Assembly: GCA_947456855.1 (NCBI GenBank)
Contig: CANGTR010000003.1
Coordinates: 1 to 64,000 of the forward strand
Length of the DNA: 64,000 nucleotides
Direction of reading: 5' to 3'
From: Sphingobacteriia bacterium
GTDB taxonomy: Bacteria > Bacteroidota > Bacteroidia > Chitinophagales > Chitinophagaceae
This document shows, one piece after another, positions 2,531 through 51,535 of this stretch. Positions within the stretch are counted from its first letter, which is position 1. Each line of letters opens with the position of its first letter. Position numbers and translations under genes: made by a program. The notes beneath the pieces are model-generated. The model did not search any database. It was not told the DNA's origin and saw nothing but the letters and a program-made list of their open reading frames with translations.

Positions 2531-2550
2531 ACTTAATACAATGTAAAGTG

Positions 2551-2599
2551 TATCTCATAATTCATATCTTATAATTCATATCTCATAATTCATAATTCT
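2551..2599. repeat. Heptad repeat array A (7 units, alternating TATCTYA/TAATTCA)
   Basis: TATCTCA TAATTCA TATCTTA TAATTCA TATCTCA TAATTCA TAATTCT with no register break. Confidence 0.9.
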
Positions 2600-2603
2600 T
2601 CAT

Positions 2604-3812
2604 TTGAACCTGCTTTTCGCCTGGCGCTATTTTAGATCAAAAAAATCAACCAATGCAATTAATATTATTGCTTGGATAGCTGTTACTGCCATTGCTGTAG
2701 GAACAGCTGCGCTTGTTATTATTTTAAGTGTATTTAATGGGTTTGAAGATTTGGTAAAAGGATTGTACGGCGATTTTTATGCTTCGGTAAAGGTTGTGCC
2801 TGCACAAGCAAAAACCTTTCATATTTCTGCCGATCAGCTCAATCAATTAAAGGCGATAAAACAAATCAAAGCAACAAGTTTTATTGCCGAAGAGAAAGCA
2901 TTGTTAATGGGAAATTATCAAGCCATTGTAACAGTTAAAGGTGTTGAGGATAATTACAATAATATCAATAATATATCAAAATATGTAAAACGTGGAAGCT
3001 TTGAACTTGGAGACAAGGAAAACCCTGGAATTATTATGGGTGCTGGCATAGAGAATGCCGCAGGAGTGGATATAGAGCGAGGTTTAACGCCCACTATTTT
3101 ATACATGCCCAATCAAAATGCAGCTAATTTGAGTGCTACGGATGGCTTAAATTCTTATGTTGTTAAACCAACCGGAACATTTGTTATTCAACAGGATTTT
3201 GACAATAAATATGCATTTACGAATTTGGCTTTTTTAAAGTACATGTTGAATATGTCGGAGGATGAATATAGTGCAATAGAAATAAAAACAAATGGACAAG
3301 ATGAACTGGTAAAAAGGGATCTACAAAAATTATTAGGGAGTGGATATAAAGTGCAAACTCGATATGAACAAAACCAATCTTTGTATGCAGTTATGCAAAT
3401 GGAGAAATGGGTAATTTATGCAATATTGTCTTTGATTTTAGTTGTAGCTGCATTCAATATGATAGGTGCTTTAACCATGTTGGTTTTAGAGAAACAAAAA
3501 GACATTGCAGTATTAAAAGCAATGGGGGCAGATGATGGTAGAATTCGAAGTATTTTTTTACTAGAAGGATTGTTATTGGCTGGAATAGGAACAGGATTAG
3601 GATTGTTTATTGCAACTTGCATTTGTTGGTTGCAAATAAAATACCATTTAATCAAATTGGGGGGATCAACTTTTATTATAGATTACTATCCTGTAAAAAC
3701 AGCCATCTCCGATTATTTATTGGTATTTTTAACAGTGAGTGGTATTGCTTTTTCAGCAGCATGGTTCACTTCCAGAAAATCGAGTAAAGCCTCTTACTCC
3801 CTCAGAACCTAA
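2604..3812 (+). CDS. ABC transporter permease, FtsX/LolC-LolE family
   Basis: N-terminal TM, periplasmic domain, C-terminal FtsX-like domain (ALTMLVLEKQKDIAVLKAMGADDGRIRSIFLLEGLLL); TTG start. Confidence 0.88.
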   Translation: MNLLFAWRYFRSKKSTNAINIIAWIAVTAIAVGTAALVIILSVFNGFEDLVKGLYGDFYASVKVVPAQAKTFHISADQLNQLKAIKQIKATSFIAEEKALLMGNYQAIVTVKGVEDNYNNINNISKYVKRGSFELGDKENPGIIMGAGIENAAGVDIERGLTPTILYMPNQNAANLSATDGLNSYVVKPTGTFVIQQDFDNKYAFTNLAFLKYMLNMSEDEYSAIEIKTNGQDELVKRDLQKLLGSGYKVQTRYEQNQSLYAVMQMEKWVIYAILSLILVVAAFNMIGALTMLVLEKQKDIAVLKAMGADDGRIRSIFLLEGLLLAGIGTGLGLFIATCICWLQIKYHLIKLGGSTFIIDYYPVKTAISDYLLVFLTVSGIAFSAAWFTSRKSSKASYSLRT

Positions 3813-3882
3813 TATCTCTTATCTTGTATCTCTAATCTCTAATCTCTAATCTCTTATCTTGTATCTCTTATCTCTTATCTCC
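3813..3882. repeat. Heptad repeat array B (10 units of [TA]ATCT[CT]N)
   Basis: TATCTCT TATCTTG TATCTCT AATCTCT AATCTCT AATCTCT TATCTTG TATCTCT TATCTCT TATCTCC in one register, filling the gap between two convergent stop codons. Confidence 0.92.
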
Positions 3883-7171: not shown

Positions 7172-7963
7172 GTGAGTGCAGTTAATTATCAGATTAAGTT
7201 AGATCAGTTTGAAGGACCTTTCGACCTATTGTTGTTTTTTATCGAAAGAGATGAATTGGATATTTATAATATCCCCATTACCAAAATCATCAATGATTTC
7301 CTAGACTTTATTCATAGTTCGGAGAAATTGAATATTGAATTAAGCAGTGAGTTTATTCTATTCATTTCAACCTTAATGAGAATTAAGGCTAGATTGTTGT
7401 TGCCTCGAAAAGAAATTGATGCTTCCGGTAATGAAATAGACCCTCGTCAAGAATTAATTGATAAAATTTTAGAATACAAACGTTTTAAAGAAGCGGCAGT
7501 TCAAATGGCTGAAATGGAAGCTATGAGAATGCTGATGGTAAAACGTGGAAATCTTCAAAAAGAAATTGCAGCAATAGGAGAGGAAGCTTCTGAAGGAACT
7601 GAGATCCAAAATATTACTTTATTCAAATTGATGAAATCTTTTGAAAAGGTAATGCAACGTGTACATGACAGACAAAACAAACCTGTACACACTGTTGTTC
7701 GTTACAACTATACTATGGAAGGAAGCCGAGATTATATGCTCGATTTTGTGGCGAAAGAAAAAACGGTAGCTTTCGAAAAAGTATTTGAAATATGCGAAGA
7801 TCGCATCCATGCAATATTCTTATTCTTATCTATACTCGAATTATCTCAACAAAAATTCATGAAATTATTGGTTGGCCAGGGCATGAATAATTTTATTGTT
7901 GAATGGAACGACAATCGTGCAGCTGATATAGCGGAGGAAGGATTGGCTGAGGAAGAGATATGA
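7172..7963 (+). CDS. scpA: Segregation and condensation protein A
   Basis: YQIKLDQFEGPFDLLLFFIERDELDIYNIPITKIINDFL...; GTG start. Confidence 0.94.
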   Translation: MSAVNYQIKLDQFEGPFDLLLFFIERDELDIYNIPITKIINDFLDFIHSSEKLNIELSSEFILFISTLMRIKARLLLPRKEIDASGNEIDPRQELIDKILEYKRFKEAAVQMAEMEAMRMLMVKRGNLQKEIAAIGEEASEGTEIQNITLFKLMKSFEKVMQRVHDRQNKPVHTVVRYNYTMEGSRDYMLDFVAKEKTVAFEKVFEICEDRIHAIFLFLSILELSQQKFMKLLVGQGMNNFIVEWNDNRAADIAEEGLAEEEI

Positions 7964-8052
7964 GATAAAAGATAGGAGATATAAGATATGAGATATAAGA
8001 TATAAGATATAAGATATAAGATAGGAGATATAAGATAGGAGATATAAGATAT
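7955..8052. repeat. Heptad repeat array C-left (14 units of [GA]AGATA[TAG])
   Basis: 14 consecutive heptads, beginning inside the last scpA codons (GAGATATGA contains the TGA stop). Confidence 0.92.
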
Positions 8053-8070
8053 TAATGAACACTTAAAATG

Positions 8071-8147
8071 TATCTCTTAATTCATATCTCTTAACTCATA
8101 TCTCATAATTAATATCTCATAATTCATATCTCATAATTCAGATCTCT
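8071..8147. repeat. Heptad repeat array C-right (11 units, TATCTCN alternating with TAAYTMA)
   Basis: TATCTCT TAATTCA TATCTCT TAACTCA TATCTCA TAATTAA TATCTCA TAATTCA TATCTCA TAATTCA GATCTCT; orientation opposite to C-left. Confidence 0.9.
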
Positions 8148-8153
8148 TCATAC

Positions 8154-10076
8154 TTAATTCTTAACGAAAACTTTCTCGCTCATTAACAACCTTACAGCAT
8201 CAGCAATACCTTGTGCATCGTAAGCACATTCGCGGTGTAATTCTTTAGGAGTACCGTGTTCAACTAAACGATCCGGAATTCCTAAAATGCTTACTTCAGC
8301 TTGATAATTATTGGCGTTCATGAATTCTAAAACTGCAGAACCAAATCCACCCACAACAGTTCCGTCTTCAACAGTAACTATTTTTTGGTAGTTGCTGAAA
8401 ACTTCGTGTAATAAGTCTTCATCAATTGGTTTCACAAAACGAAGATCATAATGTGCTGGATCAATTCCTTCAGTTCTTAGTTGACGTATAGCTGCTTGGG
8501 CAAAATTGCCCGGATGACCAAAACTTAAAATAGCAATTTCTTTTCCATCTTTTAATTTCCGGCCTTTACCAATGGTGATTGCTTCGAATGGTGTTTTCCA
8601 TTCTGTCATAACACCTTCTCCTCTTGGGTAACGAATTACAAAAGGATATTTATTGCTATCCAATTGTGCAGTGTACATTAAATTGCGCAACTCTTTTTCA
8701 TTCATTGGAGCACTCACAACCATATGTGGTATACAACGCATATATGGAATATCATAACATCCATGATGAGTAGGTCCATCTTCTCCAACCAATCCTGCTC
8801 TGTCTAAACAAAACACCACAGGTAATTTTTGTATAGCTACATCATGCACTACTTGATCGTATGCACGTTGCATGAACGATGAATAAATATTACAAAACAC
8901 CCTCAATCCTTGAGTGGCCATTCCTGCACTAACAGTAACTGCATGTTGCTCACAGATACCCACATCAAAAGCGCGATGTGGCATTTTCTCCATCATGAAT
9001 TTTAGTGAAGATCCGCTCGGCATGGCTGGTGTAACCCCCATTATTTTATCATTCATTTCAGCCAACTCAATCATGGTATGACCAAATACATCTTGGTACT
9101 TGGGTGGTTGAGGAGCGTCTATTTTTTTCTTGAATATTTCACCAGTTACTTTATCGAATAATCCAGGAGCATGCCATTTAGTTTGGTCTTTCTCCGCTAA
9201 CGCATAACCCTTGCCTTTTACCGTAACAATATGCAGGATTTTAGGACCTGGCATTTCTTTTAAATCTTTTAATGTATCAACCAGATTAGAAATATTGTGC
9301 CCATCAATCGGTCCAAAATAACGAAGGTTCAATGCCTCAAATAAATTGCTGCTTTTGCTCACAACCCCTTTGATGCTGGCTTCTAGCTTGCTGGCCATTT
9401 CTCTAGAGAAATTTTTTCCAATAGGTAATTTACCCATTAAGTTCCAAACTTCATCCCTTACCTTATTGTAAGTTGGAGAAGTAGAAATGTCGGTTAAATA
9501 TTCTTTTAGTGCACCAACATTTGGGTCGATGCTCATGCAATTGTCATTTAATATAATCAACACATCGCTGTCTGCAACTCCTGCATGATTCATTGCTTCA
9601 AAAGCCATACCAGCGGTCATAGATCCATCACCAATAACCGCAACAGATTTTCTGTTTTCGCCTCTGTATTTGGCAGCCATCGCCATTCCCAAAGCAGCAG
9701 ATATAGATGTAGAAGAGTGCCCCACACCAAAAGTATCGTATTCGCTCTCTGATCTTTTTGGGAAACCACTTAGCCCATTGTATTTACGGTTGGTGGCAAA
9801 ATTGTCTCTTCTTCCGGTTAAAATTTTATGTCCATATGCTTGGTGACCCACATCCCATACCAATTGGTCGTATGGGGTATTGTAAACATAGTGAAGCGCT
9901 ACGCTCAATTCAACCACTCCTAAACTTGCAGCAAAATGCCCTCCCTGAACACTTACTATGTCAATAATATATTGCCTAAGTTCATCGCATACCTGGTGGA
10001 GTTGTTCTCTACCTAATTTTTTTAAATCCGAAGGGTTGTTGATGTTTTTTAACAATGGTCCTGGAATGAACTCCAT
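8154..10076 (-). CDS. dxs: 1-deoxy-D-xylulose-5-phosphate synthase
   Basis: YDQLVWDVGHQAYGHKILTGR, GHSSTSISAALGMA, VIGDGSMTAGMAFEAMNHAG, LDRAGLVGEDGPTHHG. Start set at MEFIPGPLL. Confidence 0.97.
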   Translation of the reverse strand: MEFIPGPLLKNINNPSDLKKLGREQLHQVCDELRQYIIDIVSVQGGHFAASLGVVELSVALHYVYNTPYDQLVWDVGHQAYGHKILTGRRDNFATNRKYNGLSGFPKRSESEYDTFGVGHSSTSISAALGMAMAAKYRGENRKSVAVIGDGSMTAGMAFEAMNHAGVADSDVLIILNDNCMSIDPNVGALKEYLTDISTSPTYNKVRDEVWNLMGKLPIGKNFSREMASKLEASIKGVVSKSSNLFEALNLRYFGPIDGHNISNLVDTLKDLKEMPGPKILHIVTVKGKGYALAEKDQTKWHAPGLFDKVTGEIFKKKIDAPQPPKYQDVFGHTMIELAEMNDKIMGVTPAMPSGSSLKFMMEKMPHRAFDVGICEQHAVTVSAGMATQGLRVFCNIYSSFMQRAYDQVVHDVAIQKLPVVFCLDRAGLVGEDGPTHHGCYDIPYMRCIPHMVVSAPMNEKELRNLMYTAQLDSNKYPFVIRYPRGEGVMTEWKTPFEAITIGKGRKLKDGKEIAILSFGHPGNFAQAAIRQLRTEGIDPAHYDLRFVKPIDEDLLHEVFSNYQKIVTVEDGTVVGGFGSAVLEFMNANNYQAEVSILGIPDRLVEHGTPKELHRECAYDAQGIADAVRLLMSEKVFVKN

Positions 10077-10259
10077 GCATGTATATTTTATGGGTAAAAG
10101 TACGAAATTGGGCCCAAAAACCACCCAATAAGGTCTAAAACAGCCAAATACACCGATGGTTCGGAATCTAGCTTAATATTTTTAGCCAATTAGCCCCAAA
10201 ATTTGCCATTAGTCCTAAATTAGATATATGAGGGGGTATAGAATTTAACTTCGTTGTAC

Positions 10260-12068: not shown

Positions 12069-12131
12069 GAGATAGGAGATAAGAGATATAAGATAAAAGA
12101 TAAGAGATAAAAGAGAAGAGATAAAAGATAA
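12069..12131. repeat. Heptad repeat array D (9 units of [GA]AGA[TG]AN)
   Basis: GAGATAG GAGATAA GAGATAT AAGATAA AAGATAA GAGATAA AAGAGAA GAGATAA AAGATAA, starting at the nucleotide after the TAG stop. Confidence 0.9.
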
Positions 12132-50138: not shown

Positions 50139-50158
50139 AATATCAATTTAATGTCTTT

Positions 50159-50249
50159 CATCTCATATCTCATATCTCATATCTCTTATCTAATATCTAA
50201 TATCTAATATCTAATATCTCTTATCTCTCATCTCTTATCTCTTATCTCC
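50159..50249. repeat. Heptad repeat array E (13 units of [TC]ATCT[CA]N)
   Basis: CATCTCA TATCTCA TATCTCA TATCTCT TATCTAA x4 TATCTCT TATCTCT CATCTCT TATCTCT TATCTCC, single register. Confidence 0.92.
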
Positions 50250-50254
50250 TCGAT

Positions 50255-51535
50255 CTATCCCATTTCAGGATACAAAATAAATTGCTCCATGAATGCATTC
50301 ACTTGTTTTTTTACTGCGCTGATAACATTGGCGTCATCAGCATTCATCAATACATTGTCAATTACATTCACTACAAATTGCATGTGCTCTTCTTTGAAAC
50401 CTCTGGTAGTAATTGCAGGTACACCAAAACGAATACCTGAAGTAACAAATGCGCTCTTGTCATCAAATGGAACCATGTTTTTGTTGGCAGTAATATCGGC
50501 CTGAACCAAAACCTGCTCTGCTTTCTTGCCACTGATATTTTTATTGCGCAAATCAATTAGCATTAAATGGTTATCTGTTCCGCCACTGATAATATGGTAT
50601 CCTTTCTGAACAAAAGCAGCTGCCATGGCTTGTGCATTCTTCTGCACTTGTTGCTGGTAAACCAAAAACTCATCTGATAAAATTTCTCCAAAAGCAACGG
50701 CTTTGGCGGCAATCACGTGTTGAAGTGGGCCTCCTTGAATGCCAGGAAATACTGCCATATCCAATAAGTTACTCATCATTCGAATATTCCCTTTTACATC
50801 TTTAAGCCCCCATGGATTTTCAAAATCTTTATTCATCATAATGATGCCGCCTCTTGGTCCACGCAAGGTTTTGTGTGTAGTAGAAGTAACAAAATGACAA
50901 TGTTCAAATGGGCTATTCAATAATTTTTTAGCAATTAATCCTGCAGGATGTGCAATATCTGCTAAAACCAATGCGCCCACTTCATCAGCTACTTTTCTAA
51001 TGCGTGCATAATCCCAATCCCTGCTATAAGCACTAGCACCACAGTAAATTAATTTTGGTTTTACAGCTCTTGCTTGTGATTCAAGCATGTCATAATCAAT
51101 TAAACCAGTTTCTCTAACAACACCATAAAAATGAGGTTGATAGAGTTTACCGCTATAATTTACGGCACTTCCATGCGTAAGATGTCCGCCCATGCTCAAA
51201 TCCAATCCGAGTGTTGCATCTCCAGGTTGTAAAACAGCTAATGCAACCGCCGCATTTGCCTGCGCCCCACTATGTGGTTGCACATTGGCATATTCTACTC
51301 CAAAAATTTGTTTTAAACGATCTATTGCCAATTGTTCTGTTTGGTCTACTATTTCACAACCAGCATAATACCTTCTACCCGGATAGCCCTCGGCATACTT
51401 ATTGGTCATCACATTGCCCATTGCCTGCATTACCTGTAAACTGGTGAAGTTTTCTGATGCAATCAATTCAATTCCATGACGTTGTCTTTCTAATTCCTTT
51501 CGAATAAGGTCAAAAACCAAGCTATCTCTTTGCAT
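50255..51535 (-). CDS. glyA: Serine hydroxymethyltransferase
   Basis: [59 protein letters not shown]. Confidence 0.98.

Follow-up and report, generated by a model that had tools for sequence, protein, structure and literature searches.

Heptanucleotide arrays at the 3' ends of scpA and dxs are members of a genome-wide family anchored to coding-sequence edges in a Chitinophagaceae genome

Results

The scpA-dxs locus

The window, by which we mean the whole stretch of 64,000 nucleotides that was analysed, contains the convergent genes scpA and dxs, with two facing arrays of heptanucleotides between them (Table 1). The nearest named relatives of the encoded ScpA are found in Sediminibacterium and in uncultured Chitinophagaceae MAGs. 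The original prediction of two oppositely oriented heptad blocks at this position was upheld when coordinates and units were read again directly in the sequence. The first 9 nt of array A are also the last 9 nt of scpA, stop codon included, and TRF reports the array at 7956-8052 with a period of 7 and 13.9 copies. Array B, whose onset lies about 14 nt past the dxs stop according to a motif scan, reads on the plus strand as about 11 units in which TATCTCN alternates with TAATTCA; the repeat finder describes it by a 14-nt consensus, TATCTCATAATTCA, in 5.4 copies, equivalent to about 11 heptads. The best inverted repeat at the locus has arms of 76 nt that are 72% complementary and are separated by 19 nt. 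No intrinsic terminator, that is, a G+C-rich stem followed by a T-tract, was found between scpA and dxs, and an Rfam search of the window gave no matches above the gathering score. Chance can be excluded as the origin of the arrays, since 20 Markov-1 simulations of 64 kb contained no period-7 arrays and the identical scan of the real window returned four.

Table 1. Coordinates of the features at the scpA-dxs locus and of the other arrays in the window
Feature	Position	Strand	Basis and context
Start-type array, GAATTAT-rich	2550..2598	-	Between rbfA and FtsX/MacB permease gene; 5 nt from permease start
Stop-type array	3812..3881	-	Fused to stop (TAG) of transketolase N-terminal subunit gene
scpA (SMC_ScpA)	7172..7963	+	ORF; Pfam PF02616, 2e-28; 7955-7963 is GAG ATA TGA, last two codons and stop all array sequence
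Array A, 14 [GA]AGATAN heptads	7955..8052	+	Purine strand sense to scpA
Spacer between facing arrays, 18 nt	8053..8070	.	Sequence
Array B, about 11 heptads, GAATTAN/GAGATAN alternating, 14-nt period	8071..8146	-	Purine strand sense to dxs
dxs	8154..10124	-	Pfam DXP_synthase_N, 2.8e-120; convergent with scpA
Stop-type array	12069..12131	+	Directly 3' of TAG of LytTR response regulator gene
Stop-type array	50158..50248	-	6 nt past stop of gene 50255-51535 (-)

Four further arrays are present in the window, and the one at 3812 takes up the entire intergenic space as far as the stop codon of the permease gene, which is convergent with the transketolase subunit gene.

A genome-wide family with fixed polarity

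The source genome is a 2.48-Mb draft in 132 contigs, and the array counts given here cover 1.11 Mb (45%) of it. This part contains 36 period-7 arrays, and the other periods between 2 and 30 are nearly empty save for 14, 21 and 28. A motif-based scan for runs of three or more of the family units ([GA]AGATAN, GAATTAN and GAGTTAN) detected 56 runs, none of which lies within a gene even though 83% of the sequence is coding; several contigs terminate within arrays. The first unit of an array in this genome is often GAATTAA and the last often GAGATAC. At three places (C9:118-173, C10:50-70 and C19:27259-27283), the 3' end of the array runs on into a second heptad family, TAATAAC/CAATAAC.

Taking an array onset within -21 to +14 nt as adjoining a coding edge, with genes called by a simple codon-usage ORF caller whose start positions are approximate, the 5' end of the purine strand adjoins a CDS edge in 39 arrays and the 3' end in 4. 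When only one-sided arrays are considered, the ratio is 33:1 in favour of the purine 5' end (p = 2e-9). Of the 39 arrays, 30 have this end at the stop of a gene in the same orientation and 9 at the start of a gene that points away; GAATTAN units are enriched in these start-type arrays (p = 8e-5). The heptad lattice writes a stop codon, TAA/TAG or TGA, in two phases, and the stop of the gene falls in either of these in 22 of the 32 stop-type arrays (p = 3e-6). Among the longer arrays, 134 of 138 sense frames are closed and 87 of 138 antisense frames are open.

The idea that the two blocks between scpA and dxs form a local device, as the original prediction implied, was dropped once the arrays proved to be genome-wide: scpA and dxs carry two 3' arrays of this family, one for each of the convergent genes. 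Other facing pairs are present on contigs C6 (one), C13 (two) and C2 (one). In three stop-stop pairs, one array consists purely of AGATA units and its partner is rich in GAATTAN/GAGTTAN, a composition seen in 3 of 8 paired stop arrays and in 0 of 24 unpaired ones (a post hoc comparison, about p = 0.01 by hand). Selection against a long perfect palindrome could account for this asymmetry, as could an origin of the arrays from two sources.

Comparison with relatives

G017 is an array-free relative with a ScpA that is 94% identical; no period-7 arrays were detected in the 0.8 Mb of its genome that was covered. The proteins encoded by the transketolase subunit gene, the response regulator gene and the gene at 50255 all end at the same residue in G017, which shows that the arrays start exactly at the native stop; the stop of two of these genes is TAA in G017 and TAG here. 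The array at 12069 looks like a clean insertion, as the ancestral spacer appears to be retained on its 3' side. In the region that corresponds to the start-type array (2530-2610), rbfA and the permease gene of G017 share an ATGA overlap. In the source genome, rbfA is longer, the array parts it from the permease gene, and the start codon of the latter is apparently TTG; translational coupling of the two genes therefore seems to have been lost.

In G017 and in two other relatives (G011 and G003), the scpA-dxs gap holds a bidirectional intrinsic terminator and no array. Both this terminator and the longer ScpA tail are missing from the source genome (G000) and from its sister species G023. The C-terminal tails of ScpA and Dxs in G017 exceed those encoded here by about 12 and about 4 residues, respectively. 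The suggestion that the array could alter the ScpA C-terminus is supported, the array itself writing the stop, and the ScpA proteins of array-bearing relatives have different endings (EEEI*, EEEV*, KEGSE*, KEESE* and KEESEE*).

The ScpA of G023 is 98% identical to that of the source genome, and the flanking DNA is 76-89% identical. In all 28 gene gaps that could be compared, the two species agree in the presence (5 gaps) or absence (23 gaps) of an array (p = 1e-5); the G023 stretches were picked partly for containing arrays, and the source-genome side was free to differ. The five shared arrays are on the same strand and differ in unit counts. At the facing arrays of G023 (L089, 2370-2843), about 450 nt of additional sequence lies between the arrays and dxs. 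In more distant relatives, namely G035 and a MAG from Kiruna (locus L248), the scpA stop is followed first by an array, composed of AGATAAA with GTGAAGA units, and then by a terminator that is still intact; in G035, the dxs side bears another array. From this order, the arrays are to be assigned to the 3' UTRs of the individual genes, not to the terminator.

A wide distribution of the exact heptad was rejected, as it is found in only 7 of 399 genomes in a sample of the order and in 2 of 395 in a sample of the phylum, the source genome included. Arrays that adjoin stops with the purine 5' end at the stop do recur often in seven genomes (G415, G105, G055, G155, G643, G027 and G035). G055, which belongs to another family of the same order, has period-7 arrays at L087 (11170-11228 and 13077-13261) and L125 (16-506 and 7343-7595), and additionally carries 8-nt arrays (ATGAAATA) and GTATAGA heptads at these loci. 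A 5-nt array, (CATCT)n, is present in G036, which is congeneric with the source genome (L086, 1880-1947).

RNA structure

The long imperfect hairpin proposed for transcripts of either strand stands as a prediction. The facing pair has a folding energy of -55.9 kcal/mol on the plus strand (z -3.9) and of -68.8 kcal/mol on the minus strand (z -6.5), better than shuffled sequences in both cases, a trivial consequence of having two related arrays that point in opposite directions. It does not hold as a general role. Single arrays have no folding advantage over shuffles (z -0.8 and +0.5), and most arrays are single, so that a hairpin cannot be the role of the family as a whole; a general hairpin or terminator function was rejected on these grounds for single arrays. 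The hairpin at scpA-dxs is probably incidental, arising because each of two adjacent genes bears an array.

Discussion

The account that we favour is that the arrays may be heptad minisatellites that have grown by slippage, have been filtered by translation and serve no dedicated function, two of which happen to meet between scpA and dxs; we see its chances as evenly balanced. Each array would be laid down, or would grow, at a CDS edge, with the purine strand leading away from the edge. At 3' ends, the sense orientation has a stop codon in nearly every unit and closes all three frames, and the antisense orientation is largely open, which means that a sense array could take over the stop of the gene at little or no cost. 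Slippage or unequal recombination would add or remove units, changing array length by 7, 14 or 21 nt at a time. Edits at the terminus would move the C-terminus of proteins that, like ScpA, can do without their last residues. Where both convergent genes bear arrays, a facing pair would result, and its hairpin would be incidental. Several observations weigh against this account. A pure translation filter explains neither the onset exactly at the stop, instead of anywhere downstream in sense orientation, nor the identical polarity at divergent start codons. The occurrence of one unit at dozens of loci requires a step of dispersal or copying. Moreover, selection for a function could also explain why arrays persist at shared loci whose flanking DNA is 76-89% identical, and the dependence of the unit type on context, i.e., GAATTAN at start-type arrays, hints at selection as well.

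An alternative we hold to be possible, if tentative: the unstructured heptad RNA that directly follows the stop, or precedes the start, would be bound by an RNA-binding protein and would set mRNA stability or 3'-end formation, tuned by the number of units. The precise placement at CDS edges, the position of the G035 and L248 arrays between stop and terminator, the retention of loci in G023 despite turnover of units, the variation of unit type with context and the lack of structure in single arrays are all consistent with it. There is also a precedent, in that binding of S1, Csp or Csr has been proposed for TAACTGA heptads and CspB can bind heptad repeats (MacGregor 2015, PMC4679880). However, a lineage-specific RRM or cold-shock protein was rejected as the binder, because neither family correlates with the arrays: both also occur in array-free relatives, and G055 carries arrays but has no CSD match. 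Likewise, the few genes identified here as neighbours of arrays (scpA, dxs, transketolase, response regulator and permease) have no obvious function in common, and relatives with a ScpA as similar as 94% manage without arrays. The exact edge placement and long retention nevertheless leave room for a function in UTRs. A bolder form of this proposal, which we consider rather doubtful, is that stop-fused arrays make up a functional class of bacterial 3'-UTR elements. In these, the first repeat of an RNA-binding array would double as the stop codon of the gene, and the array would be one that is retained on the same genes across species despite unit turnover and that arose repeatedly in Bacteroidota with different heptads.

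It is unlikely that the facing pair acts as a bidirectional terminator or RNase III substrate that replaced the ancestral intrinsic terminator. The folding of the scpA-dxs pair, the presence of a terminator in G017, G011 and G003 but not in the two array-bearing sisters, and the low raw folding energies of three other facing pairs would agree with such a role. Intrinsic terminators also tend to be fewer at array ends (1 of 27) than elsewhere (56 of 395), a difference that is a mere trend (p = 0.15). Against this role, most arrays are single and unstructured, the scpA-dxs interval lacks any terminator-like site, the pair on C2 folds weakly, and the GAATTAN/GAGTTAN-rich partner in three stop-stop pairs reduces complementarity. 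Very improbable is a Rho-loading tract formed by the pyrimidine strand, (UUAUCUC)n, that would halt antisense transcription entering the gene from its 3' end: the antisense RNA does have the C > G composition and evenly spaced UC dimers that are relevant to Rho loading, and the polarity makes this strand antisense to the gene at 3' ends, but at start-type arrays it is the sense strand of the leader, where a Rho site should be harmful.

With their 7-nt tandem unit, many intergenic loci and turnover in length, the arrays belong to a known class of heptameric intergenic repeats. The STRR heptanucleotides of cyanobacteria (Calothrix and Nostoc) are likewise tandem and dispersed between genes, with different units, and we know of no description of stop-codon fusion or polarity for them. 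The TAACTGA repeats are found in Beggiatoaceae, Cyanobacteria and some Bacteroidetes, and in the best-studied genome they lie mainly before start codons (MacGregor 2015, PMC4679880). Like the arrays described here, they are genome-wide, intergenic, 7 nt in period and patchy among lineages, have one strand with stops in all three frames, adjoin coding edges and in some cases overlap stop codons. They differ in their unit and in their placement: most TAACTGA repeats adjoin a start codon, and their stop-bearing strand is the sense strand of the gene that follows, whereas most arrays here (30) are at the stop of the upstream gene, and those at starts (9) have the stop-bearing strand antisense. The GGGAATC and GGGGA(T/C)T heptads of Xanthomonas and Nostoc (Rehm et al. 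2015, PMC4692102) also form many intergenic arrays per genome, whose lengths vary at positions common to related species; these are G-rich and form quadruplexes, whereas the units here have no run of three or more G. Phase-variable simple sequence repeats (contingency loci) share the tandem array and the change in unit number. Stop-type arrays, however, lie outside the coding frame and past the stop, so that gain of a unit cannot switch the gene on or off, and at these loci only terminal residues change.

Heptameric arrays are over-represented in bacteria with no accepted reason, and Rehm et al. 2015 (PMC4692102) cite both this over-representation and the idea of polymerase slippage. The near-exclusive period of 7, together with anchoring to CDS edges in a fixed polarity, narrows the question to directional growth halted by coding sequence or arrays that work in UTRs, and both readings can be tested with the array-free relatives of 94% ScpA identity and the sister species that has arrays at the same loci. 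Within the literature searched, three features appear to be new: arrays fused to a stop in sense polarity, a stop codon supplied by the array, and the presence of one array per convergent gene. The scpA-dxs locus also shows that tandem repeats can capture stop codons and shorten the tail of a conserved protein.
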